Positions 41,438 through 59,064 of a stretch of DNA of 64,000 nt are shown here, one piece after another. The stretch's first letter is position 1. Each line of letters starts with the position of its first letter. The DNA lies in the NCBI GenBank assembly GCA_017459985.1, contig JAFUBX010000036.1:97111-161110 (forward strand), written 5' to 3'. The DNA is from Parasporobacterium sp. GTDB lineage: Bacteria > Bacillota > Clostridia > Lachnospirales > Lachnospiraceae. A program made the position numbers and the translations under genes. The notes below the pieces were generated by a model. That model made no database searches. It saw only the letters and a list, made by a program, of their open reading frames with translations, and was not told the origin of the DNA.

Positions 41438-42253
41438 ATGGATTTGCAGTTTCCGATTCATCTGCAATCACCCTCTGACGGATTACGCCGTAACCGGGAT
41501 GACACGATCTGCAGCATCAGATCCAGATACGTTCCCAGGAAATGTTTTATTCACATTGACGATCTGAACAAGATTCCGGTATATGTTGCCTGTCCTGAGT
41601 ATTGTTTTCTGAATGCAGCGACACACCTGTCGTTTCCGGAATTGATTCAATTTGGTTATTCCCTGTGCGCAAAATATGTTCCCGATCCGGATGCAGATTA
41701 TGGACAGCGGGCACGGGTTCCTCTCACAAATGTCAGTAATATTACCCGTTTTCTGTCCTTTTGTGATCATGCCCACGGAGACAGGAATGCCCGACGGGCT
41801 GTGAAGCATATTCTCGATAATTCCAATTCTCCAATGGAAACCAAGCTGGCCATGGCAGCTGTTCTGCCATTCCTGCAGGGAGGATTCGCTTTAAAACATC
41901 TGGAAATGAATCGGTATGTAGCGCTGACGCCGCAGGGCCGGGCTTTATTAGGCATTGATTCCTGCTGCTGCGATATGGTCTGGGATCAGGAAAAAATCAT
42001 TTTAGAATATGACAGCAATCTGACGCACCTGGAAGCCAGGCAGCATGCAATGGATAAGAAACGTGCTTCTGCACTTTCCATGGCCGGATGCAAAGTCATC
42101 AGCATCACTGCCGATGTTCTCCACAACTTTACTGCCTTCGAGAAGACATTTCTTTCTCTCCGATGGACTTTAGGAATGAGAACCGACCAACACCGGTTTG
42201 CATCCTGTCGAAGGCAGCGATACGACCTCTATCAGTTCCTCCTGAGACATTGA
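41438..42253 (+). CDS. DUF559/Vsr-like nuclease-fold protein, N-terminally short copy
   Basis: A 271-residue protein whose C-terminal half has the PD-(D/E)XK pattern of DUF559: Glu in NSPMETKLAMA, Asp in CDMVWDQEKI, then ILEYDSNLTHLE and ARQHAMDKKRASALS. It is clearly homologous to the 335-residue protein at 48977-49984, with shared EYDSNLTHL and CFL-AA-HLS segments, but lacks about 55 N-terminal residues. There is no good ribosome site at 41438, so it may be a decaying copy. The mirror repeat array at 42281-42504 begins 28 bp after its stop. Confidence 0.55.
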   Translation: MDLQFPIHLQSPSDGLRRNRDDTICSIRSRYVPRKCFIHIDDLNKIPVYVACPEYCFLNAATHLSFPELIQFGYSLCAKYVPDPDADYGQRARVPLTNVSNITRFLSFCDHAHGDRNARRAVKHILDNSNSPMETKLAMAAVLPFLQGGFALKHLEMNRYVALTPQGRALLGIDSCCCDMVWDQEKIILEYDSNLTHLEARQHAMDKKRASALSMAGCKVISITADVLHNFTAFEKTFLSLRWTLGMRTDQHRFASCRRQRYDLYQFLLRH

Positions 42254-42280: not shown

Positions 42281-42504
42281 TGACACAAAATTGTCGGTTA
42301 CGTTTGACGGTATCCATCCGGTTGACACAAAATTGTCAGTTACGTTTGATATTTAGGCAATCATCTGCACATTTTTATCATCTACGTTTGATTCTGTCAA
42401 ACGTAACCGACAAAAACGTGTATGCACTACCAATAGACTCAAACGTAACCGACAAAAACGTGTTCGCACAGCCAATAAATTCAAACGTAACCGACAAAAA
42501 CGTG
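42281..42504. repeat. Mirror repeat array, 3 direct + 3 inverted units, 42-bp period
   Basis: Direct units start at 42281, 42323 and 42365, sharing TACGTTTGA; the first two share a 27-base block containing ATTGTCRGTTACGTTTGA. Inverted units start at 42397, 42439 and 42481, each with an identical 24-base block containing TCAAACGTAACCGACAAAAA. All steps are exactly 42 bp. The two halves meet near 42394. The linkers of the inverted half are also similar, so the whole 42-bp unit is repeated. It lies between two converging genes. Confidence 0.9.
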
Positions 42505-42517
42505 CCTGTGCTGCCGA

Positions 42518-43414
42518 TTATCCGATTCTCTCCTCCAGAAATGCCAGAATATCCGCATTTGCCTGATCGGCGTAATCCCCCGCGAATCCGTGGTTGGCGC
42601 CTTCATAAACCAGAAGCTCTGCGTTTTCATAGACTTCCAGGGCTTTCTCCGAATAGGAAATATCCACCAGGCGATCGTTGTCCCCGTGCAGAAGAAGAAC
42701 TTCTCCTGTATAGGCACCAATCACATCATAGATATCCATGGACATGGCATCCAGAGAATAGACCGCTCCCAGTTCCTGTCCCATAAACCGCTCTGTCTCA
42801 GGAACATTCTCAATAGATCCGTGTCGTTCCCAGCAGTCATCCTGCAGAGCAAATGCCGGAAATTCCAGCACCATCGCCTTGATATCTTCCGGCCTCTGCG
42901 CAGCGGTATATGCGCTCACATATCCGCCCTGACTCTGTCCCACCAGGAACAGGTTCTCCGGTTCTGCCCATTCCTGTCCGGCAATCTGGTCGATCACCTC
43001 GGAAAGCTGTGCTGATTCAGTCAGCACGGACATATGGGACATATCTCCGTCAGCCGCCCCGCTTCTGGAAGCTGCACTTCCGCCGATAAAATCAAAGGCA
43101 TATGCAGCAAAGCCATGTTCTGCCAGATATTTCGCTACCGGGCCAGTCACATCGGCAGTGCTTCCGAATCCATGGGAGATGATCACGGTCGGATAAGTCT
43201 CCTGAACCTCCATCGGAAGGTATAATACCCCATAAACAGGTCCTTCCTCTGATTCCAGCCAGAATTCCTCACTTTGGCACAGCTCTTCCTGCACGGTTTT
43301 CTCCCCGGCTGCTGCCGGTGCCGGCTGGGCTGCTAGTCCCTGCACTCCCCCAAGAGCGGTTAAACAATAACCTGCTGCCAAAACTCCTGCTATCAGTTTC
43401 CTCACATTCATCAT
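42518..43414 (-). CDS. Exported alpha/beta hydrolase (dienelactone hydrolase / cinnamoyl esterase type)
   Basis: A 298-residue exported hydrolase with a signal peptide (MNVRKLIAGVLAAGYCLTALGGVQGLAA). The oxyanion loop is SHGFGSTAD, the nucleophile elbow GQSQGG, the acid HGDNDRLV and the catalytic histidine GANHGF. This full triad fits serine esterases of the cinnamoyl-esterase/BAAT type. It is not one of the seven island paralogs. It lies 85 bp after the hydrolase at 43500 in the same direction, so it is probably co-transcribed. ATG at 43411 is equally possible. Confidence 0.83.
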   Translation of the reverse strand: MMNVRKLIAGVLAAGYCLTALGGVQGLAAQPAPAAAGEKTVQEELCQSEEFWLESEEGPVYGVLYLPMEVQETYPTVIISHGFGSTADVTGPVAKYLAEHGFAAYAFDFIGGSAASRSGAADGDMSHMSVLTESAQLSEVIDQIAGQEWAEPENLFLVGQSQGGYVSAYTAAQRPEDIKAMVLEFPAFALQDDCWERHGSIENVPETERFMGQELGAVYSLDAMSMDIYDVIGAYTGEVLLLHGDNDRLVDISYSEKALEVYENAELLVYEGANHGFAGDYADQANADILAFLEERIG

Positions 43415-43499
43415 AAACCTCTTTTATTCCTGTTTCTTCTGATCTTACAGATTATGATCCGCCAATCACTTCGATCCGCTGATTCCTGAGTTTTACCGG

Positions 43500-44708
43500 T
43501 TATTCCGCGATTCTCAGGCTCTGCATAAAGGCATCTGCCTGTCCTGGCCATTCCTTACAGCCTTCTGCAGCGGTAGATGATGTTCCGGGACCAAATCCGT
43601 GCTTGGCGTCCGGGATCATATACAGCTGTGCCGGAACCAGATCCTTCACATAATCATAGACATCCTGGGCATTTTTCGGATCCACCATATCGTCAGCCAT
43701 GCCGTGGGCAATGTAGAAGGCGGGCAGATTGGGATTGGCATCGGAAAGGAAGCTCGACATGGATCCGTAAATCGGCATTGCCACATCCAGATCGGAATTC
43801 ACGGCATCCAGTTCATCCGGCGTATAAGTACTGACGCCAAGATCGGCCGGAGTCAATGCGCCATAGCAATTGAAAACGGTTCCCATAATCGTTCCACCGC
43901 CGCCGGAAAAACCAGCTGCTGCGATCATATCCTGGCCTCCCCAGCCTTCCTGCCCGGCATTATATCTGACGATCCGGATAGCTCTCTGCAGATCCATAAA
44001 AATGTCCATCTGGGAAAACGGAGCCACACGCCGCTGCAGCAGGAAGCAATTGTATCCGAGATCATTGAAAACCGGAATGGCTGCATATCCTTCGGCAGGA
44101 TTGCTTCTGGCTGAAAATCCGCCGCCGGAGATCAGAATGATGTTCCCCTTGGCCTGAGTCGGATCATCCAGTAAGCATTTAATCAGCACAGGACCTTGTC
44201 CAAACCCGTCCATTTCGCTGGCATCCAGCGCTTCCTGGGTCAACTCTGCTTCTTCCCCATCTACCACAGGTCCGACATTCGCGGTGAACCACTCATAACC
44301 GTTTGTGTTATCCTCAGCGCTGGTGCCCCACAGGAACCATGCACCGTCTGCAATAGAAACTGTCTGTACGAGGTCAGACTGTGCCTCCACGACCTTCTGC
44401 GCATCCTCCAGAGACTTTGTCCTCTTGAACTGACGGCTGTAAACCTTGGAGTATGCATCATAGGATTCCTCGGTAAATAACAGTTCAAATGCCTGAATGA
44501 TCCGGAAGTTCCGGTTCATCAGCCTGATGTATTCCTCTTCCGGCGCATCTGCCGGGATCTCCCAGAGAAAGTCTGTGATATCCTGTACAACACCATCAAC
44601 TACTGCATCCCCGGTTGCGGCTTCTTCCGCCTGGATATTGATTCCGGCAAACAGTGTCAAACACAAAGAAGCTGCGAGAATCCACATTATCAGTTTTTTC
44701 AACTTCAT
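43500..44708 (-). CDS. Exported alpha/beta hydrolase, island paralog 1
   Basis: A 402-residue exported protein; start at 44708 has GGAGGG 7 bases upstream and a signal peptide (MKLKKLIMWILAASLCLTLFAGINIQA). About 130 helical residues (DFLWEIPADAPEEEYIRLMN...) come first. The hydrolase domain follows: glycine-rich ISGGGFSARSNPAEGYAA, then LQRRVAPFS, the nucleophile elbow GFSGGGG near residue 267 and the histidine KHGFGPG near 368. The region resembles carbohydrate and polyphenol esterases with a Ser-His-Asp triad. Closest in the window to the frameshifted copy at 61680. Confidence 0.82.
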   Translation of the reverse strand: MKLKKLIMWILAASLCLTLFAGINIQAEEAATGDAVVDGVVQDITDFLWEIPADAPEEEYIRLMNRNFRIIQAFELLFTEESYDAYSKVYSRQFKRTKSLEDAQKVVEAQSDLVQTVSIADGAWFLWGTSAEDNTNGYEWFTANVGPVVDGEEAELTQEALDASEMDGFGQGPVLIKCLLDDPTQAKGNIILISGGGFSARSNPAEGYAAIPVFNDLGYNCFLLQRRVAPFSQMDIFMDLQRAIRIVRYNAGQEGWGGQDMIAAAGFSGGGGTIMGTVFNCYGALTPADLGVSTYTPDELDAVNSDLDVAMPIYGSMSSFLSDANPNLPAFYIAHGMADDMVDPKNAQDVYDYVKDLVPAQLYMIPDAKHGFGPGTSSTAAEGCKEWPGQADAFMQSLRIAE

Positions 44709-44746
44709 TTTGTTTCCCTCCATTGTCCATTATTTTTTAACTACGC

Positions 44747-44817
44747 ACTGCAGAACACAGGAGCTCTCACTTCTGTGTTCTGCAGTATAAATTCCTCACC
44801 GCAACAACATCGTGACA
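44747..44817 (-). promoter_or_regulatory. Conserved hydrolase-island promoter box with start-site hairpin (paralog 1)
   Basis: On the minus strand the box TGTCACGATGTTGTTGCGGT (44798-44817) lies 9 bp before TATACT (44784-44789). The RNA would begin inside a perfect 14-bp hairpin (ACTGCAGAACACAG, 44747-44760 with 44773-44786). No -35 hexamer is seen, so an activator probably binds the box. Confidence 0.65.
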
Positions 44818-44839
44818 GAAGAACTGGATTTTGCACTCT

Positions 44840-46450
44840 TCACTGCAGAATCATCACTCTGCCAACGCCGATGATGGTTTCCATATCAATATTCACGCCA
44901 TCTTCTCCGAAATAGTATTCATGCCGGGCATCTCCCACATCATACAGAAAATCGCTTTCAAACAGATCGCTGATGGTCCTCAGCTGCAGATGGAAGGCCT
45001 GATCTTCGGGAAGATACACATTCATATCACCATCCACGGTTTCCAGATTGTAGGTGTCTGCAATCACACCTATAATGTCGATTTCGCCCGCGGAAGCATA
45101 GATGGAAATATTATCCAGAACAACCCCCTCCGGAACCTGCACCAGGATATTTCCGTCCTCTTCTGTCTGCAGGATCTCAGTTCCGCCATAATACTCGACG
45201 GTGACGGAACCGGTGTCACTGGTGATGCCGATGATATTGGCCTCCGCTGATAACACACTCTCTGTGTCTTCTTTCATTTCTGCGCCATCGGCTGCTGCCT
45301 GATGATAGCCGCGGTTTTCCTGCATAAATACATCCGCCTCTGTTGGCCACTGGGCGCACTCCCCGGTTGCTTTAATAGCGCCTTCCTGCCCGACGCCAAA
45401 TCCATGCCCCGCACCTTCGTAGACAATCAATTGGGACGGAACGATGTCTTTCGTATAATCATAATAGTTTTCCAGTCTCTGGGTGGCACCGGTGGCATCC
45501 TCCGAACCGGCCACCATGAAAAGAGCCGGCCAATGCCCTGTTTCCGTGAGCATCCGGTCATTTCCGGTATAAACCAGGATTCCGACGTTGAAATCGCCAT
45601 CAATGGCATCGATCTCATCCGGCACATAGCTTAAGGCGCCCATATCCACCGGTGTCTGATCAAAATATGCATTTTCAATCACGTCAATGACTTTTAAGCC
45701 GCCCGCTGAAAATCCGCACAGTGCGATGCAGTCCATGCCGCCCCAGCCCTCTTGTTCCCCAAGATATTTCACCAGTCGGATAGCCCGCATGGTATCCATA
45801 TCCACGTCGGTCTGAGAGTAAGGGTTCATACGGCAGTCTACGACAAAGGCATTATAGCCCAACGCCTGAAATACTTCCGCTGCCGGGAATCCCTCCCCAT
45901 CGTTGGTGCGGCTGCCCCCGGAAAACAGCAGGACATTGCCTTTTGCCTCAGAAGGATCCTCCAGCAGATAGTTGATCATATAAGGGACGAATCCATATCC
46001 ATCCAGCTGCCCTGCATCCAGCTCTTCTTCCGCATATTCTTTATCCCCGGCATTCGGCATATTCTCCGCATCCCACAGGAAGGTGATTCCTTCCGCGACG
46101 CTTTTTACCTGTTCCAGATTCTGCAGGGCTTCCACAAATTCCTCCCGGGCGCCTTCTTTATTCTGGTTCAAATGTACGCTGGCCACATAGACTTTATGGA
46201 AGGATTCTTCCGTAAACAGCGGTTCCATTTCTTTCACAATCTTGTAATTGCGGGACCTGGCCAGTTCAAAGGCTTCATCGTCCATATCCGTGCTGATCTC
46301 CCAGAGATACTCCCCGATGTCCTGCAGCACTTTGGCATCCGAAACAGATACATTTGCATCGGTCACCTCTTCTCCTGCAAAACTGATTGCAGGAACAGTC
46401 AATGTCACTAATAATAAAATTGACAATAACATGCACAACCGTTTTTTCAT
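44840..46450 (-). CDS. Exported alpha/beta hydrolase, island paralog 2, with beta-rich C-terminal domain
   Basis: About 536 residues with signal peptide MKKRLCMLLSILLLVTLTVPA. It has the helical N-terminal domain and the hydrolase domain of the island family, with LFSGGSRTNDGEGFPAAEVF, nucleophile GFSAGG near 248 and GAGHGFGVG as the histidine loop. It adds a C-terminal beta domain (about 130 residues: GSVTVEYYGGTEIL..., DNISIYASAGEIDIIG), not seen in most paralogs, which may bind substrate. It starts just after the kinase stop at 46502, so kinase and hydrolase share a transcript. ATG at 46456 is an alternative start. Confidence 0.8.
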   Translation of the reverse strand: MKKRLCMLLSILLLVTLTVPAISFAGEEVTDANVSVSDAKVLQDIGEYLWEISTDMDDEAFELARSRNYKIVKEMEPLFTEESFHKVYVASVHLNQNKEGAREEFVEALQNLEQVKSVAEGITFLWDAENMPNAGDKEYAEEELDAGQLDGYGFVPYMINYLLEDPSEAKGNVLLFSGGSRTNDGEGFPAAEVFQALGYNAFVVDCRMNPYSQTDVDMDTMRAIRLVKYLGEQEGWGGMDCIALCGFSAGGLKVIDVIENAYFDQTPVDMGALSYVPDEIDAIDGDFNVGILVYTGNDRMLTETGHWPALFMVAGSEDATGATQRLENYYDYTKDIVPSQLIVYEGAGHGFGVGQEGAIKATGECAQWPTEADVFMQENRGYHQAAADGAEMKEDTESVLSAEANIIGITSDTGSVTVEYYGGTEILQTEEDGNILVQVPEGVVLDNISIYASAGEIDIIGVIADTYNLETVDGDMNVYLPEDQAFHLQLRTISDLFESDFLYDVGDARHEYYFGEDGVNIDMETIIGVGRVMILQ

Positions 46451-46501
46451 TCTCATTTTTCCTTTCCGTTTTTCGGACTTCTCCGTATTTTGTTTACCCA
46501 C

Positions 46502-47827
46502 TTATGCTTTCAGCAAAACAGTCAAACGCACCCATGGCTCATCCGACATCAGAGAAACAGTTCCTCCATATTTCTCCGCTGTATAACGGATTCCCTTGAA
46601 GCCGTAACCATGATGCTGTTTATCATCTTTTGTAGTTACTAATTCTCCATCCTTGTATTCCAACGGGGTTTCGCTGATATTTTCCACACAGATTGCCAGA
46701 TATCCCTGCTGCCGCATCGCCTTGACATGAATCAACCGCCGATCCGGATCCGGAATTTTCATAACTGCTTCAATGGCGTTGTCCAATGCTCCGCCGAAAA
46801 TCACACACAGGTCATCGATAGCAATATTCGCAAACAGCTCTCCATCCATGACATAACTGAGATGAATCCCATTCAGCAGGCAATACTGATTTTTCTCCCA
46901 GAGGATCGTGTCCAACACCGGGTTGCCCGTAAGCCGTTCCGGTTCGATCTGTGCCACTTTTTCCTCCAGGCTGTCCAACCAGTCCTTTTGCTGTTCAACA
47001 GGAATATCTGATTTGATAATAGCAATCTGATTTTTCAGGTCATGATATTTCTGGTTGATGATTTCAGCGTTTCGACTGGCCTGCTCATACTGCCCTTTTT
47101 GTTTATCAAAGACATTGCTGATCATTTCCAACTCATGCCGCACCTGCAGATATCCTTTCCAGATCCGCCGCCCATAGAGAATGAACAATGCCACAAGAAC
47201 ATACACCCACCGGGGAATCAGTCCCAGACTCCGGTCCCAGACCTCAAACAGATTCTGCACCATGAAAACCTGCTGCGCATTGCTGAGCGCATATGCCAGC
47301 AAGGTGATAATCAGCGTGATGATCAGATCCTTTACCGATGCTTCATAGCGCCGTACCAGATCATAAAAGGCCCGCTCCGCAAAAAAGACAATGGTGAATA
47401 TGACTGCAAATACAACAACAATCAAAAGCCAGCGTCCTGTACCTGCAGGGATGTGCCCGCCCTGTATAAATACATACTGCAGGAACATTTCAATTCCCCA
47501 GGCCAGTTCGGATACCAGGAAAGCGTACAAACCCGTCATAACCGCCGTGATCAGCCGCATATTGCAGTTCAGGTAAATATGAAGGATCATAAGAGCAATA
47601 TATAGACAGGTCCGCAGCAGAAGCTGCGGCAATGTTTCCATTGAGGCAAAAGGCATTGCTTTGGTTGTAATCCACATACCAAAGGTCTGAACCAGCAGCA
47701 TTGCGAGGGAGATTGCTGCAGATGTCAGCTTTCCAAACCTTTTGGGCGGCCGTGTTATATAAATCACGCAGGCAATCCATTCTCCCAACACAGTCAGAAA
47801 ATAGGGCCCATTCAGCCAATTAAGCAT
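46502..47827 (-). CDS. GHKL-type sensor histidine kinase (AgrC/natK type)
   Basis: A 441-residue membrane kinase. About six hydrophobic segments fill residues 1-210. A coiled-coil region leads to YHDLKNQIAI, with the phosphorylated His near residue 265. The GHKL ATPase domain has GGALDNAIEAV and HGYGFKGI. This is the AgrC-type kinase of LytTR systems, sensing a small molecule or peptide through the membrane domain. Start at 47827 has AAAGGAAA. It is divergent from the response regulator at 47996 and followed directly by a hydrolase gene. Confidence 0.9.
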   Translation of the reverse strand: MLNWLNGPYFLTVLGEWIACVIYITRPPKRFGKLTSAAISLAMLLVQTFGMWITTKAMPFASMETLPQLLLRTCLYIALMILHIYLNCNMRLITAVMTGLYAFLVSELAWGIEMFLQYVFIQGGHIPAGTGRWLLIVVVFAVIFTIVFFAERAFYDLVRRYEASVKDLIITLIITLLAYALSNAQQVFMVQNLFEVWDRSLGLIPRWVYVLVALFILYGRRIWKGYLQVRHELEMISNVFDKQKGQYEQASRNAEIINQKYHDLKNQIAIIKSDIPVEQQKDWLDSLEEKVAQIEPERLTGNPVLDTILWEKNQYCLLNGIHLSYVMDGELFANIAIDDLCVIFGGALDNAIEAVMKIPDPDRRLIHVKAMRQQGYLAICVENISETPLEYKDGELVTTKDDKQHHGYGFKGIRYTAEKYGGTVSLMSDEPWVRLTVLLKA

Positions 47828-47879
47828 ATGTTTCCTTTCTGGTTCCGGCACATCGTCCTCTACCCTATATGATGGATTT

Positions 47880-47942
47880 AGTATAGCATGCCTTCAAAAC
47901 TGCCTCAATTGACACTTCGTAAATGGTCCGTTTAGTTCGTAA
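47880..47942 (-). promoter_or_regulatory. Kinase-hydrolase promoter with LytTR-like direct repeats upstream of -35
   Basis: On the minus strand TTGAGG (47903-47908) and TATACT (47880-47885) are 17 bp apart. Directly upstream are two copies of A(C/G)TTCGTAA on the plus strand, at 47914-47922 and 47934-47942, period 20 bp. LytTR activators such as AgrA bind paired 9-bp direct repeats in this position, about two helical turns apart. Confidence 0.65.
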
Positions 47943-47960
47943 CCTGCATTTTCATTTGTG

Positions 47961-47996
47961 TTTACTTTTTTTCCTGTTTTTTATATAGTTTACGTA
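47961..47996 (+). promoter_or_regulatory. Promoter of the response regulator, predicted leaderless transcript
   Basis: TTTACT (47961-47966) and TATAGT (47984-47989) are 17 bp apart. Counting from the -10, the start site falls on base 47996, the A of the start codon. No ribosome site is present before this ATG, which agrees with a leaderless message. Confidence 0.55.
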
Positions 47997-48709
47997 TGAT
48001 TCGAATTGCAGTTGCAGAAGATGAATTGAATACTTTTGAAACCATTCGCGGCTATATTGATCAATATGCAGAGGAAAAGCAGCTTGAAGTGAAGGTCGAC
48101 CATTTCTCGAATGGGCTTCTCATCTCTGACTCTTACCGCCCAGAATATGATATCGTTCTGATGGACGTGGATATGCCCCTGATGAACGGGATCTCTGCAG
48201 CCAAAATCATACGAGAAAAAGATCCTGAGGTCATCATCATTTTCATCACGAATCTTTCCCAGTATGCAATCCAGGGGTACTCGGTACAGGCATACGATTA
48301 CATTTTAAAGCCTATTAAATACTTTTCTTTCATACAGTTTTTTGATCGGGCCGTCACGCGCCTCAGGAAAAACAGCACCCAGCCATATATTACAATATCT
48401 ATGAAAGAAGGCTTACGAAAAGTTGCGATATCAGATCTTTACTACATCGAAGTCCAGAACCACACCCTGTCCTACCACACTGCATCGGGTACCTTTCAGG
48501 CTACCGGAAAAATGAAGGAACTGGAAAGTTCATTACATTCCCATCATTTCAGCCGCTGTAATAACAGTTACCTTGTGAATCTTGCTTATGTGGACTGTAT
48601 CCTGGAAAACGATGCCGTCGTTCACGGTGAACCGCTCCCTGTCAGCCGTTCCCGCAAGAAAGACTTCTCTTCTGCACTGATTTCCTACATCAGTACCCAC
48701 CTGAAATAA
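47996..48709 (+). CDS. LytTR-family response regulator
   Basis: A 237-residue regulator. The receiver domain has AEDE near the N-terminus, the phosphorylated Asp57 in YDIVLMDVDMP and Lys in YILKPIK near 106. The LytTR DNA-binding domain (residues about 130-235) has SDLYYIEVQNHTLSYH and FSRCNNSYLVNLAYVD. It pairs with the divergent kinase and lies inside the esterase island, so it is the best candidate controller of the hydrolase genes. No Shine-Dalgarno is seen; see the leaderless promoter. Confidence 0.92.
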   Translation: MIRIAVAEDELNTFETIRGYIDQYAEEKQLEVKVDHFSNGLLISDSYRPEYDIVLMDVDMPLMNGISAAKIIREKDPEVIIIFITNLSQYAIQGYSVQAYDYILKPIKYFSFIQFFDRAVTRLRKNSTQPYITISMKEGLRKVAISDLYYIEVQNHTLSYHTASGTFQATGKMKELESSLHSHHFSRCNNSYLVNLAYVDCILENDAVVHGEPLPVSRSRKKDFSSALISYISTHLK

Positions 48710-48813
48710 TGGCAAAACAAAGCACCGGTTTCTTAAGCCGTGGTTCATAATTGACAGGAATATAAGCATATTCATGCTATCATCCACAAATTTCAAAGAA
48801 ATATAGAAACACC

Positions 48814-48925
48814 TTGACAGAGGGCATTGTATTACACTAAATTAACCATATGTCGATTATTTTAACGGATCAAATTTTTTATATGTTTCATGCACAGCAG
48901 GAGACCCGAAAGGGTCTCCTGTTTT
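48814..48925 (+). other. Short promoter-to-terminator unit without a reading frame (unit B)
   Basis: TTGACA (48814-48819), 18 bp, TAAATT (48838-48843), then about 55 bp to a perfect 10-bp stem (CAGGAGACCC-GAAA-GGGTCTCCTG, 48898-48921) followed by TTTT. This would give an RNA of about 75 bases. It resembles unit A at 33526 in its first 25 bases and lies just before a nuclease-like gene. The terminator may also end the regulator message. Confidence 0.5.
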
Positions 48926-48976
48926 GTATTACAACTTACAGGGCAAGATCCTATTTTCCTTTGAAGGAGGTATTTT

Positions 48977-49984
48977 ATGATAATTCCTATTATTTACCCT
49001 TCTGCCATTCAATTTTGGATGGACAGTAATTTGCTGAATTACTCAGATAGCTTTTCTCTAGAGAAACGGTATCCTGCTTTATTGCCAGATCATTATGAAT
49101 TTCATCCCACATCTTCTGTTGCAGCAAAAATCTCTCAGCAATTTGGATTTACTTATCCAATTCACGTAATGGCCCCGGATATTGTCAGTCGAAGAATTAA
49201 CAATTATTTTTCCAGCGGTTTAAAGCCGTGCCATCTACCATCCGACAGTTTTATCGAGATTGATTCTTTTCGCATTCAGTCTGGAGATAAATCTGATATA
49301 TACAGTATTTATCTTGCCTCTCCGGAGCTATGCTTTCTGGAAGCTGCTGTTCATCTGTCACTTATTGAATTGATTAAGCTGGGATATGATCTGTGTGCTA
49401 TTTACCTGACCGACACTACAGCTGATTATCACCATACCAGCCGAAAAATAATTGCTACTCAGCAAAGCATTGCTGCATATCTGGAAACAATGACAAATAT
49501 AAAAGGAATCAAGAAAGCACGTACAGCAATCCGTCACGTTCTAAACAGATCCAATTCTCCCAGGGAAACCATGCTGTCTATGATTTTAACACTTCCCATG
49601 TCCATGGGCGGTTATGGAATATACAAGCCGGAATTAAATGAAAGGGTCCAACTGTCTGAACAAGGATCACAGATTTTGCATAGAGACTATTGTATCTGCG
49701 ATATTGTTTGGGAGAACAAAAAAATAATTGTAGAATATGACAGTAATCTGACCCATCTCAATTCTACACAGCATGAACTGGACAAAGCCAGAATAAGTGC
49801 CTTGACATTGTCCGGGTATCAGGTAATTACTCTGACACCTGCAAATATGCGCAGTCTATCTGACCTGGATAATATATGTACTGCTCTACGTTGGAAATTG
49901 GGACTCCATAAAGAATGTGCACGCCTAAACAAATATAATGAAAAAAGACGAGCATTATACAAGTATCTTAAAGAATCGACATGA
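48977..49984 (+). CDS. DUF559/Vsr-like nuclease-fold protein, full copy
   Basis: A 335-residue protein of unknown role. The N-terminal 170 residues have no hallmark I know; the start (MIIPIIYPSAIQFWMDSN) has a strong AAGGAGG. The C-terminal part follows the DUF559 order: Glu near 196 in NSPRETMLSMI, Asp near 241 in CDIVWENKKI, then VEYDSNLTHLN near 252 and a conserved helix TQHELDKARISAL. These could form a PD-(D/E)XK active site. The gene is AT-richer than its neighbours, a hint of transfer. A mirror repeat array begins 49 bp after its stop. It may be a repeat-specific nuclease or a DNA-binding protein with the nuclease fold. Confidence 0.6.
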   Translation: MIIPIIYPSAIQFWMDSNLLNYSDSFSLEKRYPALLPDHYEFHPTSSVAAKISQQFGFTYPIHVMAPDIVSRRINNYFSSGLKPCHLPSDSFIEIDSFRIQSGDKSDIYSIYLASPELCFLEAAVHLSLIELIKLGYDLCAIYLTDTTADYHHTSRKIIATQQSIAAYLETMTNIKGIKKARTAIRHVLNRSNSPRETMLSMILTLPMSMGGYGIYKPELNERVQLSEQGSQILHRDYCICDIVWENKKIIVEYDSNLTHLNSTQHELDKARISALTLSGYQVITLTPANMRSLSDLDNICTALRWKLGLHKECARLNKYNEKRRALYKYLKEST

Positions 49985-50032
49985 ACCAACTTGCACTTAC
50001 AACCTCGAACCCTTACTGCCAGTACCTTACAG

Positions 50033-50272
50033 CGCAGATATTTCGATTGTGACTATTTATTTGGTATTGATTTCGCAGATTTTTCGGTTGTGACTACCCA
50101 GCAAAATCTCCTGACGCAGAATTTTCAGTTGTGATCACTGCTAAAGTCATTGTTTATACAGATTTTACTTTTTTAGGTGATGGCTGTTCTGTGAAAGATG
50201 ACTGCAATGTATCATAACTGTAAAATTTGCGAATCCGAATGGATGAAAGTTGTCACAAGTGTTAAAATTGCG
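50033..50272. repeat. Mirror repeat array, 3-4 direct + 2 inverted units, 41-bp period
   Basis: Direct units start at 50033, 50074 and 50115, with the form CGCAGATTTTTCGGTTGTGA and a few changes; a weak fourth lies near 50157. Inverted units lie at 50212-50231 (16 of 20 match) and 50253-50272 (14 of 20). Steps are 41 bp within each half. A third inverted unit expected at 50294 is not convincing. The layout is the same as in the array at 42281 and the core TC(G/A)GTT(A/G) is shared. Confidence 0.8.
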
Positions 50273-50370
50273 TCGTATACCCATTTACACAAATCAGTTG
50301 TTACCATATGAATAATAAATCCGAACTTCTGCCAGATATTCCTCTTCGTTTCCCAGAGTTATGATCGAAA

Positions 50371-50410
50371 AGAGAGTCTCGAATCGGGTTTCCCGAATTC
50401 GAGACTCTCT
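50371..50410 (-). terminator. Strong stem-loop after hydrolase paralog 3
   Basis: Perfect 14-bp arms (AGAGAGTCTCGAAT / ATTCGAGACTCTCT), plus an inner CGGG-TTT-CCCG, lie 51 bp after the minus-strand stop at 50462. TTTTCG follows on that strand. Confidence 0.85.
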
Positions 50411-50461
50411 TTCAAAATTATGTCTGTATGAAAAAGCTATGTTATTAACCTTCTTGTAGAA

Positions 50462-51976
50462 TTATCTTGCCACCCACTCTTGCGCACTTGCCACTGCATC
50501 ATCCCATATGAGCTGTGCATCTCCGGTCATGAAACCAGTCAGGTCGTAGGTTACATCAACGATACCATCTTCTACGGTACCTTCCAGGATCTGATTTTCA
50601 TCAAATGCTTCCCATGTCAGATAGAAAGCAGTCTGATCGTCATTGGTATATGCAGTAATTTCCGCATCTCCGAATCCATAGGTTCCGTCAAAGACCTTCA
50701 CCTGTGTATAATCTGCGGGAATATCACCATCAGTTCCTTCTTCCGCAGGAGCCGCATCCTCTGCGATTGCTTCCGGTACTTGTGCTGTATCTGCTTCCGG
50801 GAGTTCTGCCGGAGCTGCGCCGGTGGAATGTCCCTTGTTTGCCATCATGAATTCATCGGCATAGCCCGGCCACAAAGCACATTCTTCGGTACCCTTCAGT
50901 GCGCCTTCCTGACCAACACCGAATCCATGGCCGGCACCTTCGAATATATCAATTCTTGCGGGAATGCCCAATTCTACAAGACGGTTATAGACTTCCTGAA
51001 TATGATCTGCCGCACCGGTTTCATCCTCAGATCCTGCACACATGTACATTGCCGGGATATTCGGATTTTCGCAGTCTTCATCCAGATGACCGCCATAGAT
51101 CGGCATGGTAACATCCGTATCGCTGTTCACAGCATCAATCTCATCCGGTACATAAGTGGAACAGTATTTGGTCGGGTTCAGATCCCCATAAAGATTATTC
51201 ACCGGACCCATGACGGTGGCGGCACCGCCGGACCATCCGCAGTCTGCGATCATATCCTGGCCACCCCAACCCTCCTTTTCTGCATAGTAACGGACCATAC
51301 GGATCGAGCGCTGCATATCCATGAAGATATCTTCATCGGAATACGGACGGATTCTTCTCTGCAAAACAAAGACGTTGTATCCAAGGTTGTTAAACACTTC
51401 GATGGCCGGATAAGCTTCACCGGAATTGCTGCGGTTGGTCATACCGCCGCCGGAAACCACAATAATATTACCCTTTGCCTGGGTGGGATCTTCCAGAAGG
51501 CATTTGATCAGAAGCGGAATGAAACCATAGGAATCCAGCACGCCTTCATCCAGTTCTTCCTCAGTAAACTCTTCGCCATCCAGGCAGGGCATATTGTCTG
51601 CATCCCACAGGAAATATACGCCATCCGCCACAGACTGGGTGAGGATCAGATTCTCCTGAGCCGTCATGAATTCTTCCTTGTAGCCGTCTTTTTTCTGTTT
51701 TGCATGTACACTTGCTACATACAGTGCATGGAAGGTATCGGCATCCACCATCGGCTCCAGGGACTGCACGAACTTATAGTTTCTCTGGGAATACTTGTAG
51801 AAATCCTCATCGGACATATCCGTGGACAGCTCCCACAGATAGTCTCCGATATCCTTCGGATCTGCCTGCTTAATCTCCTCTTCTGCCGCTTCCCCGGCAG
51901 GTTCTGCCATCGCGGTAATGGAAAACAGGCTCATCACCATGATTGCAGCCAATAACATGACTAATAATTTTTTCAT
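50462..51976 (-). CDS. Exported alpha/beta hydrolase, island paralog 3, with C-terminal beta domain
   Basis: A 504-residue exported protein (signal peptide MKKLLVMLLAAIMVMSLFSITAMA). Order: helical N-terminal domain (DIGDYLWELSTDMSDEDFYK), VVSGGGMTNRSNSGEAYPA, LQRRIRPYSDED, nucleophile GWSGGA near 248, CAGSEDETG as the likely acid and GAGHGFGVG as histidine. After about residue 400 follow an Ala/Pro/Glu linker and a small beta domain (DGTYGFGDAEITAYTN, ILEGTVEDGIVDVTYD) also found in the frameshifted copy at 61680. The terminator at 50371-50410 ends the unit. Confidence 0.83.
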   Translation of the reverse strand: MKKLLVMLLAAIMVMSLFSITAMAEPAGEAAEEEIKQADPKDIGDYLWELSTDMSDEDFYKYSQRNYKFVQSLEPMVDADTFHALYVASVHAKQKKDGYKEEFMTAQENLILTQSVADGVYFLWDADNMPCLDGEEFTEEELDEGVLDSYGFIPLLIKCLLEDPTQAKGNIIVVSGGGMTNRSNSGEAYPAIEVFNNLGYNVFVLQRRIRPYSDEDIFMDMQRSIRMVRYYAEKEGWGGQDMIADCGWSGGAATVMGPVNNLYGDLNPTKYCSTYVPDEIDAVNSDTDVTMPIYGGHLDEDCENPNIPAMYMCAGSEDETGAADHIQEVYNRLVELGIPARIDIFEGAGHGFGVGQEGALKGTEECALWPGYADEFMMANKGHSTGAAPAELPEADTAQVPEAIAEDAAPAEEGTDGDIPADYTQVKVFDGTYGFGDAEITAYTNDDQTAFYLTWEAFDENQILEGTVEDGIVDVTYDLTGFMTGDAQLIWDDAVASAQEWVAR

Positions 51977-52086
51977 TTACAACTCCTTTCCAATCAGTCC
52001 ATACAGAAGCATATTTGTAAATATCAAATCGTTCCTGTAAATAATACCAACAGTTATTTTTCAGAACAACATACGATGTGTAATGA

Positions 52087-53898
52087 TTATTCTCCCGGAA
52101 CTTCCTCTGCCGGAGATTCCCCTTCTGCAGACTCGCCTTCTGCGGATTCCCCTTCGGATTCTCCGCCTTCGGAGCCGGCGCTCTGTCCAACGCCCAGGAT
52201 CCCGTCCACATCAGCCGTTGCCGGATCATATGCGGTCCATTCGATTTCACCTGCTGCATCCTTTGCAATGATGTAAGGCAAAATGGAGTTATCCATATCC
52301 GTGGTCCACCAGGTGCCGTTACAGTCCATAACCGTATGGCCTGTGCCGTTGATGACGATACCTTCGCAGTACTGCACGGTGTTGTTATCAAAGAAGGTCA
52401 GGAAGCCCACATAATAGAATTCGTGATTATCATCGGTCCATACCACCAGGGTGGTTTCCGATCCAGCCGGGATGCCGGGTGCATTTTCCAGAACGGTCAT
52501 CAGTGTATATTTCTCCGGAAGGATGGAGTAGTCAATGTCTGTGCCATGGGCTGCAGAGTACAGGCCGCAGGATACCACTTCGTATTCTGCCTTGGACTGA
52601 TTCATCATCCAGAGTTTGATGGACTGGTCATTGGCACCGGGATAGGAGCTGTTATGAAGCTTGCCTTCCGGATAATAATACGTGGTAACGCCGGTGATCG
52701 GGTCAGAAATATAGCCGCCATCTTCCATAAGAGCCCATTCGGTGCGGTCTCCCAGAAGGGTATTGAAATCTTCCGCGGTATACAGATGCCAGAAAATATC
52801 CACGTCGGGGACCATGCCGAACTCCACCAGTTTGGTATAAGCCGTTGCGTAACGGATCGGAGTGGAGGTAGTGTCGCCGATGGACTGCACCATCATGACT
52901 TTGGTTCCGGACTCGGCCAACTGCACAAGTTCTGCATCGGACCAGGGAGTTTCCGCATCGATTTTCACTGTGTCTTCCAGCTGATCGCTGCCTGCTGCGT
53001 CATCATAGTTATAGCCGCCGTCGAAGATCACAATGCCGGTAGCCAGGCCCGGATAGCGGCTGACAAACTGCATGGTAAAATTGGATCCTGCGGATTCGCC
53101 GGTAATGAACACCCGGTTGGCATCGACTTTACCTTCCTCAATTAGACGGTTGATTTCATCTGCGATGGCTGCGCACAGATCATCGGTTTCTCCTTCATTT
53201 CTCTGCGGATACAGGGCATAGCATTTCATGATATCCTGCGCATCGTCTTTGGCAAAAGATACCAGGAAGTTGGCGCCATAGATGTCGCCGGTTGTGGAGA
53301 TGCCGGAACCGCCGGAATTAAACACCACCAGCGGAAACGCTCCTGCTTCTTCCGCACCTTCCGGCGTGTAAAGATAAGTATCCAGTGTTGCGGTACCGGA
53401 TGTTAAAGTATATTCTTCGAAGGATTCTACCACAGGATCCGAAAACTCAATCTCGGTTGTGGCATTTACATCGAAAGCCGGATTGGTGCAGGAGAATGCC
53501 CAATAGCCATCCCGGCCATAGCTGTTATTGGGATAGAATGCGGGCACTTCCACTGTGACGGTGTCCGCTGTAAAGAAAATGCCGGTTGCCTGTGCATCAA
53601 AGAAATCCTTGTATTCCATGGCGTCATAGCACAGATAAGTGCCCTGGAAATCTTCTGCTGTCATGTCCAGCAGATCTGCCGTGGAATCCACATAATAGGT
53701 AAAGGAATGAATCGCCTTGCCATAGGGTTCTGATGTGCAGTTGGCGACGATTTTGTTTACGGTCACTTCGGCGGTTGCCTCAGCGGCGGGAACTTCTGTT
53801 CCCATGTCGTCTGCGGCAGGTGCATCCGCAGCAAGGGCTGCTGTCGGGACTGCAAGTGTACAGACAGTTACGAGTGCTGCCAGTTTTCTCCATTTCAT
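52087..53898 (-). CDS. Large exported alpha/beta hydrolase with acidic tail
   Basis: A 603-residue exported hydrolase not close to the seven paralogs. Signal peptide MKWRKLAALVTVCTLAVPTAALA; N-terminal beta domain about 150 residues; then VVFNSGGSGIS as oxyanion loop, nucleophile elbow GESAGSN near 275, IFDGGYNYDD, and a histidine probably in YSAAHGTD. It resembles secreted PHB-depolymerase/feruloyl-esterase-like hydrolases. The C-terminus is a Gly/Glu/Ser repeat tail (EGESAEGESAEGESP), like that of the beta-helix protein at 7534. Gap to the next hydrolase is 110 bp. Confidence 0.72.
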   Translation of the reverse strand: MKWRKLAALVTVCTLAVPTAALAADAPAADDMGTEVPAAEATAEVTVNKIVANCTSEPYGKAIHSFTYYVDSTADLLDMTAEDFQGTYLCYDAMEYKDFFDAQATGIFFTADTVTVEVPAFYPNNSYGRDGYWAFSCTNPAFDVNATTEIEFSDPVVESFEEYTLTSGTATLDTYLYTPEGAEEAGAFPLVVFNSGGSGISTTGDIYGANFLVSFAKDDAQDIMKCYALYPQRNEGETDDLCAAIADEINRLIEEGKVDANRVFITGESAGSNFTMQFVSRYPGLATGIVIFDGGYNYDDAAGSDQLEDTVKIDAETPWSDAELVQLAESGTKVMMVQSIGDTTSTPIRYATAYTKLVEFGMVPDVDIFWHLYTAEDFNTLLGDRTEWALMEDGGYISDPITGVTTYYYPEGKLHNSSYPGANDQSIKLWMMNQSKAEYEVVSCGLYSAAHGTDIDYSILPEKYTLMTVLENAPGIPAGSETTLVVWTDDNHEFYYVGFLTFFDNNTVQYCEGIVINGTGHTVMDCNGTWWTTDMDNSILPYIIAKDAAGEIEWTAYDPATADVDGILGVGQSAGSEGGESEGESAEGESAEGESPAEEVPGE

Positions 53899-54069
53899 TT
53901 GATGATGTCCTCCTCTTCAAGAAATTGTTTTCAGGTTCTTTAGTCCGATTTTCCAAAATCCGGGCACATGTATATTCCCAGCATACGGAACTATTCGGAG
54001 GATATCATCTTCATTTTCCCTGCTCAATGCAGGATTCGTAATCGGTCGTTTTCATGCGTAAATTGCAGC

Positions 54070-55029
54070 TTACCGGTAATCTTTAATATATTCATATACA
54101 GCGTTGAAATCTACAGAGAACTCTTCCTTCCAGATCAATACCGGGATTTTGCTGGTGAAATTGTAAAGCTTTGGCAATTCCTCATGTTCCAGATCATATA
54201 CTACAACAATGAGTTTATCCGGATCAATCATCCAGTATTCCCTCACTCCTGCCTCTGAATACTTTGCCAGTTTCAGCGTCATATCCTTCTTCCTGGTAGA
54301 ATGGGACAATATCTCAATGATGAAATCCGGAGCGCCAAATACCCTGCCATTTTTAATCAGTGTTTCTGGTCTGCACAGGATCAGGATATCCGGCTGAACC
54401 ACCGTCTTATCATCCTGGTCCAGCTGCACGTCTACCGGCGAAAACACCGGTTTGCATGGTCCCTTCTGTTCCTCGATATGACGCATCAGCTGATGGACTA
54501 TCTGGGTGGCAATCAACTGATGATTTACCCTTGGCGCTGCCAGGTCATAAAAAACACCATCTATCAATTCTACCCGCAGATCGTCCGGGAGCGCCAGATA
54601 GTCTTCCAGCGTATAACTTCCCTGCTTTTTATTTGGATACATACTTCGGATGAAAGCATCTGCCAGGGCTCCGAAGCCTGTATAATCATCCGGATAATCT
54701 GTCTCTTCTTTTCGGGCAGTGCTGCCGGCAATATAAGGGGTCCCCGGATCTTCAAGTACCTTCGTCCCTGCATTTTCACTGGTGCCAGTATAATTTACTG
54801 GCGTATCAGGCTCTACTCTGGATCCCGCTCGAAAATGGAACCGCGGATTCGAATGGCTGCCATCTGACAGTACTGATTCTAATGCCAGAACAGTCTCTCG
54901 TCTGGGAGAGGATGTTGTCCCGCCAAACAGTTTGTTCACTGTGCTTAACGGAACGCCGGAAAGCCTAGCAATATCCCGGTTGGTATACCCCAGTTCTTTT
55001 TTACGCTCCTTCATCTCCTGTATCGTCAT
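54070..55029 (-). CDS. Uma2-family (DUF820) nuclease-fold protein with N-terminal helix-turn-helix
   Basis: A 319-residue fusion. Residues 1-55 are an XRE/LacI-like helix-turn-helix (GYTNRDIARLSGVPLSTVNKL). The C-terminal Uma2 domain has YLALPDDLRVELIDGVFYDL, VQPDILILC, APDFIIEILSHSTRKKDM and KYSEAGVREYWMIDP. These are the Glu, Asp, Glu-x-Leu and Lys marks of its PD-(D/E)XK fold. Such proteins are common and mostly uncharacterised. The N-terminal domain suggests binding to a defined DNA site. Its upstream region shares a 19-base motif with the array at 34 kb. Confidence 0.82.
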   Translation of the reverse strand: MTIQEMKERKKELGYTNRDIARLSGVPLSTVNKLFGGTTSSPRRETVLALESVLSDGSHSNPRFHFRAGSRVEPDTPVNYTGTSENAGTKVLEDPGTPYIAGSTARKEETDYPDDYTGFGALADAFIRSMYPNKKQGSYTLEDYLALPDDLRVELIDGVFYDLAAPRVNHQLIATQIVHQLMRHIEEQKGPCKPVFSPVDVQLDQDDKTVVQPDILILCRPETLIKNGRVFGAPDFIIEILSHSTRKKDMTLKLAKYSEAGVREYWMIDPDKLIVVVYDLEHEELPKLYNFTSKIPVLIWKEEFSVDFNAVYEYIKDYR

Positions 55030-55096
55030 ATTGTTTCTCTCCTATTAAATGCCCCTGTCTTCTGGTAAACTATAAAAAATGTTCTGGTTATAGTAT

Positions 55097-55182
55097 TTTT
55101 ATATCACAAAATGGCTTTTATCACAATGAGATATATCCACATTTTATCCATATAGATAATTATTCATCCTATATTTATCCTT
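55097..55182 (-). promoter_or_regulatory. AT-rich upstream region of the Uma2 gene with TTTTATC repeats
   Basis: TTTTATC or a close form recurs at about 55099, 55116, 55142 and 55173. The block at 55116-55134 (TTTTATCACAATGAGATAT) matches 18 of 19 bases at 33990-34008. The gap 55030-55319 holds nothing else but two GGATATGAC copies (55209, 55224) and the stem-loop at 55246. Confidence 0.45.
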
Positions 55183-55245
55183 TTATTGCAATAAGCCTCT
55201 AAAATTTGGGATATGACGATTTTGGATATGACCATCATGCAACAA

Positions 55246-55280
55246 ACAGGCAGGGCGGTGGCCCTGCCTGTCTGCTTTTT
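55246..55280. terminator. Stem-loop between hydrolase and Uma2 genes
   Basis: Perfect 11-bp stem ACAGGCAGGGC / GCCCTGCCTGT with GGTG loop. It lies 39 bp after the minus-strand stop at 55320. The long T-run (CTTTTTT) is on the plus strand; the minus side has TTTGTTG. Confidence 0.75.
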
Positions 55281-55319
55281 TAAGGAGAAATTCCATTATG
55301 AAAAATTATCAGTAACCGC

Positions 55320-56372
55320 TTATTTGAAGATAATGCTTCTGTTATTTGCCAGAATATACGGGAAGAACAGATCATTATGAGCATATTCTGAAATGGTAAA
55401 GTAGAAGTTGTTCACTACCGGATCGGTACCGTAGGAGAAGGTATCGGTCTGCTCATAGAAATACTGCATCATCGGGACAAAATCTGCCATCATCTTCTGA
55501 TCCGCGTTGCCGCCGACGTAGCAGCTCAGGAAGAAGTCCAGATCCGGATGAGCATCCAGGATTTCTTTTACATAAGCGAACTTCTCTTCTACTGTCTCAG
55601 CAGATCTTCCATCCAGTGGGTTGATGCCGCCGCTGCAGGGCATCCAGTATTTAAAGTATTCAAAATCTTCATGCATCACGTTCCAGGTGCACATGGATCC
55701 TCTGGAATAGCCGGCCCAGGCGCGATGGTCACGAGTTGCCTTGATGCCTTCATCCGAAAAGTCTTCGCAGTATACATTGAACTGGCTCTCAATCTGCGGA
55801 ATCAGATCTTCCACGATTTCTCTGTAATAGAAGCTGCGGTCGCCGCCTTCCACGCCATCAGGTGTTACAAATCCATCTTCCGGAATATCAAAATAGAAAG
55901 TCGGGCAGATGATGATGCATTTGTCCAGAAGGCCAACCTCATCATCAAACAGGTTGTTGAACAGATTGTTGCAGTTGGCGGATTTCATAATGTGATCCCA
56001 GAACTCATTGGGAGATCCGCCATTTCCATGCTGGAAATAGATCACATTGTACTTGGTTTCCGTGTCATTCTCATCGTAGCCATAAGGAAGATATACAGTC
56101 ACATACTTGGTGTAGGTCTCGCCATCTTCATAAGCGTCCGTGGTGTAATGGGTACGAATGACCGTTCCCTTGTTTTCGTTTTCAATCAGATTGTAACCGG
56201 TGGGCAGTACATCCCATACAATGGGAACGTCGAAAACATCCTCATTCACAATGGTATCCCAGGTTTCAAAATCCGGTTCCGGCTCCGCCTCATCGGCAAA
56301 AGCGGTCATGACACCGCACAGCATTGTCAGCGCGATCACCAGGGAGACCACACTCCATAAAACTTTTTTCAT
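55320..56372 (-). CDS. Exported CE1/feruloyl-esterase-like hydrolase (copy 1)
   Basis: A 350-residue exported esterase of the esterase-D/CE1 type (signal peptide MKKVLWSVVSLVIALTMLCGVMTAFA). Features: VYLPYGYDENDTETKYN, YFQHGNGGSPNEFW, the nucleophile in AWAGYSRGS near 215, and a histidine in EYAHNDLFF near the end. Feruloyl and acetyl-xylan esterases and many xylanase-linked CE1 domains have the same order. It is a paralog of the protein at 59169 and of the remnant at 5615. The conserved island box at 56448 controls it. Confidence 0.87.
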   Translation of the reverse strand: MKKVLWSVVSLVIALTMLCGVMTAFADEAEPEPDFETWDTIVNEDVFDVPIVWDVLPTGYNLIENENKGTVIRTHYTTDAYEDGETYTKYVTVYLPYGYDENDTETKYNVIYFQHGNGGSPNEFWDHIMKSANCNNLFNNLFDDEVGLLDKCIIICPTFYFDIPEDGFVTPDGVEGGDRSFYYREIVEDLIPQIESQFNVYCEDFSDEGIKATRDHRAWAGYSRGSMCTWNVMHEDFEYFKYWMPCSGGINPLDGRSAETVEEKFAYVKEILDAHPDLDFFLSCYVGGNADQKMMADFVPMMQYFYEQTDTFSYGTDPVVNNFYFTISEYAHNDLFFPYILANNRSIIFK

Positions 56373-56433
56373 TTTTTCAACCTCCGTTATTATTCAAAAT
56401 CGTTTATTTTTTGACATCAATTTTTCATTCGTC

Positions 56434-56467
56434 ATTTTACAACATCTACCGCAACAAGACCGTGACA
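56434..56467 (-). promoter_or_regulatory. Conserved hydrolase-island promoter box (CE1 copy 1)
   Basis: Box TGTCACGGTCTTGTTGCGGT (56448-56467) is 9 bp before TAAAAT (56434-56439) on the minus strand, 62 bp before the gene start. It differs in 2 of 20 bases from the box of paralog 1. Confidence 0.65.
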
Positions 56468-56489
56468 CGAAATGATTATCTATCTGTGG

Positions 56490-56698
56490 CGCAATTTTTT
56501 CAGTTATGATTAAAAACATAATCTCTTTCGCGCATTTTTTTCGGTTATGTATAATAGTTTTTTATAATATCGGATTATTTATGTTTTATTATATACACTA
56601 CTGGAGTTTTTGCGTTGGCTTGCGGGCTTGATCTACACGCAACCGAAATATTTGCGCTGGCCTGCGGGCTTGATCTATACACAACTGAAATATCCGCG
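56490..56698. repeat. Mirror repeat array, direct and inverted units, 41-42-bp period, no adjacent nuclease gene
   Basis: Direct units at 56490-56509 and 56531-56550 (each 16 of 20 to CGCAGATTTTTCGGTTGTGA), with a faint third near 56572. Inverted units at 56595-56614 (12 of 20), 56637-56656 and 56679-56698 (16 of 20 each). The last two sit in a repeated 42-bp segment that includes GCGGGCTTGATCTA. It lies between two minus-strand hydrolase genes; the nearest nuclease-type gene is Uma2, 1.5 kb away. Confidence 0.8.
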
Positions 56699-58995: not shown

Positions 58996-59064
58996 GAATT
59001 CCTCCTGATAATTCATCATCGAAATGGCTGATCCTCACCATTTTGCCTTAACATATTCCTTTAT

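Follow-up and report, generated by a model that had tools for sequence, protein, structure and literature searches.

What are the repeat arrays that recur in a 64,000-nucleotide stretch of a Lachnospiraceae genome, and how did they come to be there? The stretch, which we call the window, covers positions 97,111 to 161,110 of contig JAFUBX010000036.1 in the Parasporobacterium sp. draft assembly GCA_017459985.1. It holds three arrays (A1, A2 and A3, Table 1) in which short direct units are followed by inverted units, and two of these lie behind genes of a single family. The arrays are members of dispersed private repeat families, and three of these families, T1 (that of A1), T2 (that of A2) and T3 (outside the window), each have a partner gene in this genome. 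Our reading, to which we assign a probability of roughly 0.6, is that the arrays are non-autonomous, mostly intergenic elements and that a cognate protein of about 335 aa, a probable nuclease, disperses each family in trans, with a copy of the element directly 3' of the gene. Families that have a member just behind their own nuclease-like gene suggest a new kind of partnership spreading within bacterial genomes.

A preliminary description of this DNA had reported three mirror arrays, and the positions of the individual units in A1, A2 and A3 confirm the direct-then-inverted plan. The start-to-start steps are 42, 42, 29, 42 and 42 bp in A1, so that the 42-bp step claimed for this array is exact within each half, and the block TCAAACGTAACCGACAAAAACGTG is identical in all three of its inverted units, as had also been stated. 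The steps are 41, 41, 93 and 41 bp in A2 and 41, 60, 42 and 42 bp in A3; the middles of these two arrays are wider than that of A1 and their layouts are looser. From 52 units listed in the genome, the 24-bp unit can be written as CRC(A/G)-(A/T)5-NN-C(G/A)GTT(A/G)(C/T)G-tail, where the tail is mostly TTTGA in A1-type units, ACTA in A2 and looser in A3. The core TC(G/A)GTT(A/G)(C/T)G, described earlier as shared, is missing from several units, among them the third direct one in A1 and, in A2 and A3 respectively, the first direct and the first inverted one.

Table 1. Arrays, linked genes and other features; positions are those of the window unless a contig (C127) is given.
Feature	Position	Strand	Remarks
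Array A1, family T1	42284..42504	none	Three direct units (starts 42284, 42326, 42368) and three inverted units (42397, 42439, 42481) of 24 bp; 42-bp steps; 5-bp central gap
Array A2, family T2	50033..50272	none	Three direct units (50033, 50074, 50115) and two inverted units (50208, 50249); 41-bp steps
Array A3	56490..56698	none	Two direct T1-like units (56490, 56531) and three inverted units (56591, degenerate; 56633, 56675); 41-42-bp steps in each half
Gene of P0002, intact 335-aa array-linked protein	48977..49984	+	Weak DUF559/PD-(D/E)XK match; stop before A2
Relic of array-linked gene	41438..42253	+	38% identical to P0002 over 272 aa; stop before A1
Third family gene	C127:15664-16686		Same genome; T3 array behind its stop
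T3 element at the gene-linked locus	C127:15462-15588		Outside the window; 37 other loci in the same genome
Alpha/beta-hydrolase- or esterase-like proteins (examples)	42518-43414, 50462-51976, 55320-56372, 58033-59019, 59169-60290
GHKL-type histidine kinase and LytTR response regulator	46502-48709		Divergent
Uma2-type putative endonuclease	54070-55029		With helix-turn-helix domain

The pattern census and the search for the gene family covered 2.332 Mb (66%) of the draft assembly, and the reversed pattern over the same sequence served as the chance control for unit searches. The preliminary description had proposed that phased units should be enriched in the genome, and they are. The T1 pattern CRCRWWWWWNNCRGTTRYGKTTGA with up to 2 mismatches gave 45 matches against 2 for its reverse, and in the whole genome CACN8CGGTTACGTTTGA with up to 3 mismatches gave 60 against 15. 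The T1 matches fall in 14 loci, 12 of which have at least two units; in two cases (C113 of C92, C121 of C64) the locus is a second copy in the draft, leaving 12 independent loci. None of the 14 lies mostly within an open reading frame (ORF) of at least 150 aa, though such ORFs cover 86% of the sampled sequence. The T2 pattern was found at four loci: A2, its copy at C21:72130-72377, one outer unit of A3 and a single match inside a long ORF, which we take to be chance. The C21 copy is 88% identical to A2, and the homology starts a few bases outside the first unit and stops just past the last one. When 38 arrays were assigned to a gene context by a rough ORF rule, 27 were tandem, 8 convergent, 2 divergent and 1 undetermined, so that most lie beside gene 3' ends; no promoter link was seen in these contexts.

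The third family is a much-copied one. Its unit, CGCATTGCTGCATTTTTTCGGCAG, differs from that of T1 and T2 and occurs 126 times in 38 loci (at least two units in 29), against no match for the reversed pattern. An alignment of 28 copies with at least three units has sharp ends with the 12-bp inverted consensus TACCGCAATGCT...AGCATTGCGGTA. By a simple rule both ends were located at 28 of the 38 loci, where 17 elements measure 219-221 bp and the others 55-264 bp; shorter forms of, for example, 57, 97 and 160 bp occur. Seven of the 38 loci lie mostly within ORFs of at least 150 aa, some of them perhaps spurious. The flanks look unrelated except in one group (C59:170184, C14:89866 and C125:77029), where they are alike on at least one side, possibly from an old insertion in a duplicated gene. 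T3 looks plainly mobile.

In this genome the three families pair one to one with genes. A protein profile search found three genes of the family in the sampled part of the genome, with stops 31, 49 and 73 bp before arrays of T1 (A1), T2 (A2) and T3, a different repeat family each time. The relic at A1 is without the part that matches about the first 60 aa. As controls, an array follows within 100 bp downstream at 22 of 1704 ORFs with 150 aa or more, and 162 of 20000 random positions have one within that distance. The loci first searched for the linked gene had mostly been fetched because of their arrays, which introduces a bias, and the profile search of the genome was made for this reason; the T3-linked gene was found by the protein profile alone, with no prior link to an array. 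Among the collected loci, tblastn found relatives only beside arrays (the A1 relic, two genes in the related genome G003, one in G005 and one in G007), and a profile search of 205 loci added only three homologues from Collinsella. The gene-linked arrays of G003 (L129, TATCA tail) and G005 (L134, TGTCA tail) match solo arrays of their own species. No family gene lies near A3 or the remaining T1 arrays within the stretches examined. The pairing of arrays with a gene family had been overlooked in the preliminary description, and literature searches at the level of titles and abstracts gave no publication on such an association.

The layout is also found outside this genome. In a set of 14 genomes of the genus (this one and 13 relatives, drafts among them), the unit model gave candidate matches in 11 at E<=1, this genome included. 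Direct-then-inverted units are clear in the loci of 7 of the 13 relatives (G001, G003, G005, G006, G007, G008 and G011), with other tails, as would be expected if the mirror layout is conserved; G008 has the 3+3 plan of A1. The arrays of G010 and part of those of G011 have the opposed units in reverse order with the tails outward. Model R2 is fitted to 42-bp pairs alone, so that other spacings would escape it, and was used with stricter filters; in a sample of 200 genera, one genome each, it gave four weak matches outside this genome, none with such an array. The exact T1 pattern was absent from viral contigs and had four matches in genomes, close to our chance expectation, and A1 had no phage or plasmid match.

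A protein similarity search linked P0002 to a hypothetical protein, WP_320678086.1, of Collinsella aerofaciens, a member of a different phylum (27% identity over 68% of P0002). A mirror element starts 13 bp behind the stop of this gene, with 42-nt arms that are 79% complementary and 165 nt apart. Three more elements that share its unit, GTGCA(A/T)4TNNGAGTATTC (up to 2 mismatches), were found in 450 of the 900 kb of the Collinsella record, and no further family gene was found in those 450 kb. In one of these solo elements (L209:8298-10044) 1.7 kb separate the two units, and an IS256 transposase gene is annotated within that interval. All three have an A tract at one end and a T tract at the other, in both orientations, a feature shared by six of the nine independent T1 arrays with units in both directions. 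A 1785-bp circular record with a distant homologue was considered as an excised circle and rejected, as it has no array and its ORF reads like an insertion sequence (IS) transposase.

Could the arrays instead be ordinary miniature inverted-repeat transposable elements (MITEs)? They would then derive by decay, as non-autonomous forms, from an unrelated transposon that has disappeared or that the draft does not contain, and the neighbouring genes would be passengers that tolerate an insertion behind them. The 12-bp inverted ends and dispersed copies of T3 are what is expected of MITEs, though the ends of T1 are less defined, and both the bounded copy of A2 and the preference for gene 3' ends would fit. 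This explanation does not predict a different repeat family at three of three family genes, nor the linked element in Collinsella, and we consider it unlikely. No transposon bearing T3-type ends was found in what was searched. The ends of IS21, Mu and Tn7 transposons carry several transposase sites, direct at one end and inverted at the other, a layout that the arrays share, but none of the arrays was found together with istA/istB or with a Mu/Tn7-type gene, and both readings were rejected. None of 30 loci found with the IS21 model (NF033546, 61 genomes) has an array, two having a single weak unit-like match. In this genome the IS21-transposase matches are under the cut-off and the IstB-model matches are weak (best 56 bits, four of five over the cut-off, for a model that also matches in 13 of 14 control genomes); by length and place we read the IstB candidates as other ATPases. 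The Mu/Tn7-type domain PF09299 occurs in 2 of the 14 genus genomes, this one not among them. Of 11 loci with a Y1 transposase domain, 7 were scanned, and none of the 7 has a T1 or T3 unit. The BrickBuilt elements (PMC4596501) are likewise short, non-coding, intergenic and dispersed, with tandem units inside and inverted ends, but their repeats are 23 bp without spacers and the abstract reports no linked gene.

The spacing of the units is regular over several species. Same-orientation steps in this genome are 41-43 or 31 bp, and the inverted pair is 29-30 bp start to start with a gap of 5-6 bp in the nine T1 arrays that have a close inverted pair. Related species with other tails use steps of 30 bp (G006, 21 of 23 steps, the other two 42), 41 bp (G008), 42 bp (G001 and G011), 50-51 bp (G005) and 51-52 bp (G007 and one G003 array), which are near 3, 4 or 5 helical turns. 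At 10.5 bp the phase coherence reaches R = 0.90 over 70 steps and 0.92 over nine per-family values; the values within each set are not independent. The earlier proposal that a 42-bp step places the units on the same face of the helix is thus supported beyond this genome. T3 is an exception: its steps are mainly 40-42 and 61 bp, and since the commonest, 61 bp, is not a whole number of turns, the phasing of T1 and T2 does not extend simply to T3. The large cruciform that had been offered as a second possibility is not supported because the arrays are often lopsided (4+1, 1+4 or 3+1) and the opposed A/T tracts, which show the same top-strand base in six of the nine independent T1 arrays with units in both directions, would not pair there.

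Helical phasing also suits cooperative binding by a host protein, and the arrays could be immobile binding sites (for example an insulator or a nucleoid-organising site) whose units are kept by selection, with the linked protein as a regulator. LytTR boxes were another candidate considered, with a LytTR regulator near A2. To the eye, copies within T1, G006 and G005 have units and steps in common but unrelated-looking spacers and interiors, as such sites would; spacers inside one array half can resemble each other, as in A1. The plainly mobile look of T3 and the missing promoter link argue against this, as does an array on contig C59 between genes read as comEC and holA, upstream of holA. No array was seen by eye at the holA site in the 11 relatives that have upstream sequence (two others have no such sequence). 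The C59 array adjoins what is left, 33 codons from the 3' end (L047, about 1829-1927), of a gene that we take to be PD-(D/E)XK-like and that is whole (272 aa) at the same place in G006 and G012; the array therefore marks a point of deletion or insertion. We hold the host-site explanation to be improbable. An RNA-level element, with long hairpins as terminators or structured RNA, would fit the close inverted pairs, which could fold, and the position beside gene 3' ends, but it is very improbable given that one inverted unit is shared by several direct units, that the T tract has no consistent orientation relative to the genes beside it and that in six of the nine independent T1 arrays the A/T tracts of opposed units would not pair; terminators and RNA hairpins were rejected on this orientation of the tracts.

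What might the linked protein do? D242, E253, Y254, H260 and D269 are invariant in seven aligned proteins of the genus and are kept in WP_320678086.1. The C-terminal part of the protein is probably, if tentatively, a Vsr/EDxHD-like PD-(D/E)XK nuclease domain, judged by sequence against what we take to be the features of that family. EDxHD/Vsr-like homing endonucleases and DUF559 proteins are related in fold, and the linked protein shares with them a C-terminal E-Y-D/E-S-x-L-x-H ... D pattern; unlike it, no member of these groups is paired with dispersed repeats in the titles and abstracts searched. An AbiEi-like N-terminus was suspected from a resemblance and rejected, as there was no Pfam AbiEi match and comparison with one annotated AbiEi-type protein gave nothing. 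No relative of P0002 or P0003 was found in viral contigs, and the linked protein of G007 had no phage match.

The unit, its spacing, the mirror layout, the dispersal, the sharp T3 ends, the link between genes and repeats and, for this genome, their one-to-one pairing are observations; mobilisation by the nuclease is inferred, and is the most likely mechanism of dispersal. The protein, if an active nuclease, would bind the 24-bp units through the two conserved blocks that flank the A/T tract, several units being bound on one helix face on each arm, and would bring the arms together. It would then act in trans, cutting or nicking so that the element spreads while the gene itself stays in place.

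To our knowledge, the spread of short repeats that have no transposon of their own has been worked out in some depth in bacteria only for repetitive extragenic palindromic (REP) sequences and the REP-associated tyrosine transposases (RAYTs). REP hairpins are GTAG-tagged, and the T1 and T2 units differ from them in being bipartite sites of about 24 bp at helical spacing. REP, BIME and REPIN repeats are associated with RAYT (TnpA_REP) transposases (PMC2817692, PMC8266576, PMC8049555). The arrays resemble that system as species-specific extragenic repeats of many copies with opposed pairs and multi-unit arrays, and in having a partner gene beside a repeat copy. Additionally, the repeat type goes with the gene type: three genes have three families here, and the tails match for one G003 gene and for G005. 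The partner here shows no Y1 domain, and the gene has a whole mirror element on one side, unlike RAYT genes, which are flanked by two repeats; the arrays are on the 3' side only for the three genes of this genome and the Collinsella gene. PF01797 (Y1) occurs in 5 of the 14 genus genomes and was not found in the array-bearing drafts G003, G005, G007, G010 and G011, and a Y1 transposase was rejected as the general driver on this ground and on that of the Y1 loci without units. Because neither the Y1 transposase nor two-sided flanking was found, the arrays are not a REP/RAYT system; they are best read, by analogy, as working like one with a different enzyme.

Several results weigh against dispersal by the linked protein. 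The gene is not part of the mirror element, and, in contrast to RAYT genes, the three genes of this genome were found to have no unit of their own family on the 5' side. In G007 no array is visible behind the gene, and the one present stands 180 bp upstream of it. Behind the second G003 gene (L130) comes a stretch rich in repeats of another unit type. Array loci were the starting point from which the genes of G003, G005 and G007 came to light. In Collinsella, such an element is absent from two more distant homologues (L203 and L204). The A1-linked gene is a relic, though T1 has 12 independent loci, and T1 spacers vary freely between loci and therefore do not show recent movement of this family. 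The 28 T3 loci show no evident target duplication, and a joined-flank search of the sampled sequence found no T3 empty site. The nuclease assignment has its own weaknesses: the DUF559 match is weak (best E 0.0025, under the curated cut-off, with E<=1 in four of seven members), among PDB profiles the top match, to the mobile intron protein 3r3p, covers the E-to-D stretch at E 0.13, and for the T3-linked protein Pfam gave no family at E<=1.

A broader version of our reading, which we put at a little under even odds, is a new class of selfish or domesticated partnership between gene and repeat that is present in two phyla. In it, helically phased mirror sites would be recognised and spread in trans by a PD-(D/E)XK-like nuclease, each gene lineage having a private family. 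If so, it would be a second, independent solution to the REP/RAYT task, acting on double-stranded DNA, and an unrelated enzyme linked one to one to private families would demonstrate more than one origin of repeat populations of this kind. A simple recognition code, made of the tail sequence and the spacing (3, 4 or 5 turns), would come with it, along with a new candidate family of proteins that bind specific DNA sequences and have a likely site beside each gene.

Further observations concern individual loci and the surroundings of the arrays. A malic-enzyme gene with the same array is present in two contigs (C92:5341-5477 and C113:354-490) that diverge shortly past the outermost unit, after which one contig has a gene read as dnaX and the other a gene read as tig; this may be a strain difference, a rearrangement at the array or an assembly error. 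A distant relative (28%) of the gene truncated at the C59 array lies in the window at 34423-34935. Upstream of another ORF in L072 there is a distinct palindromic pair, CCGGTTAACGTTACCA and TGGTAACGTTAACTGG (about 2590-2660 on the reverse complement). Between 42518 and 60290 the window encodes a series of proteins whose alpha/beta-hydrolase or esterase matches range from weak to clear; several have signal-peptide-like starts, and A1 and A2 sit behind two of these genes. The LytTR regulator is near A2.

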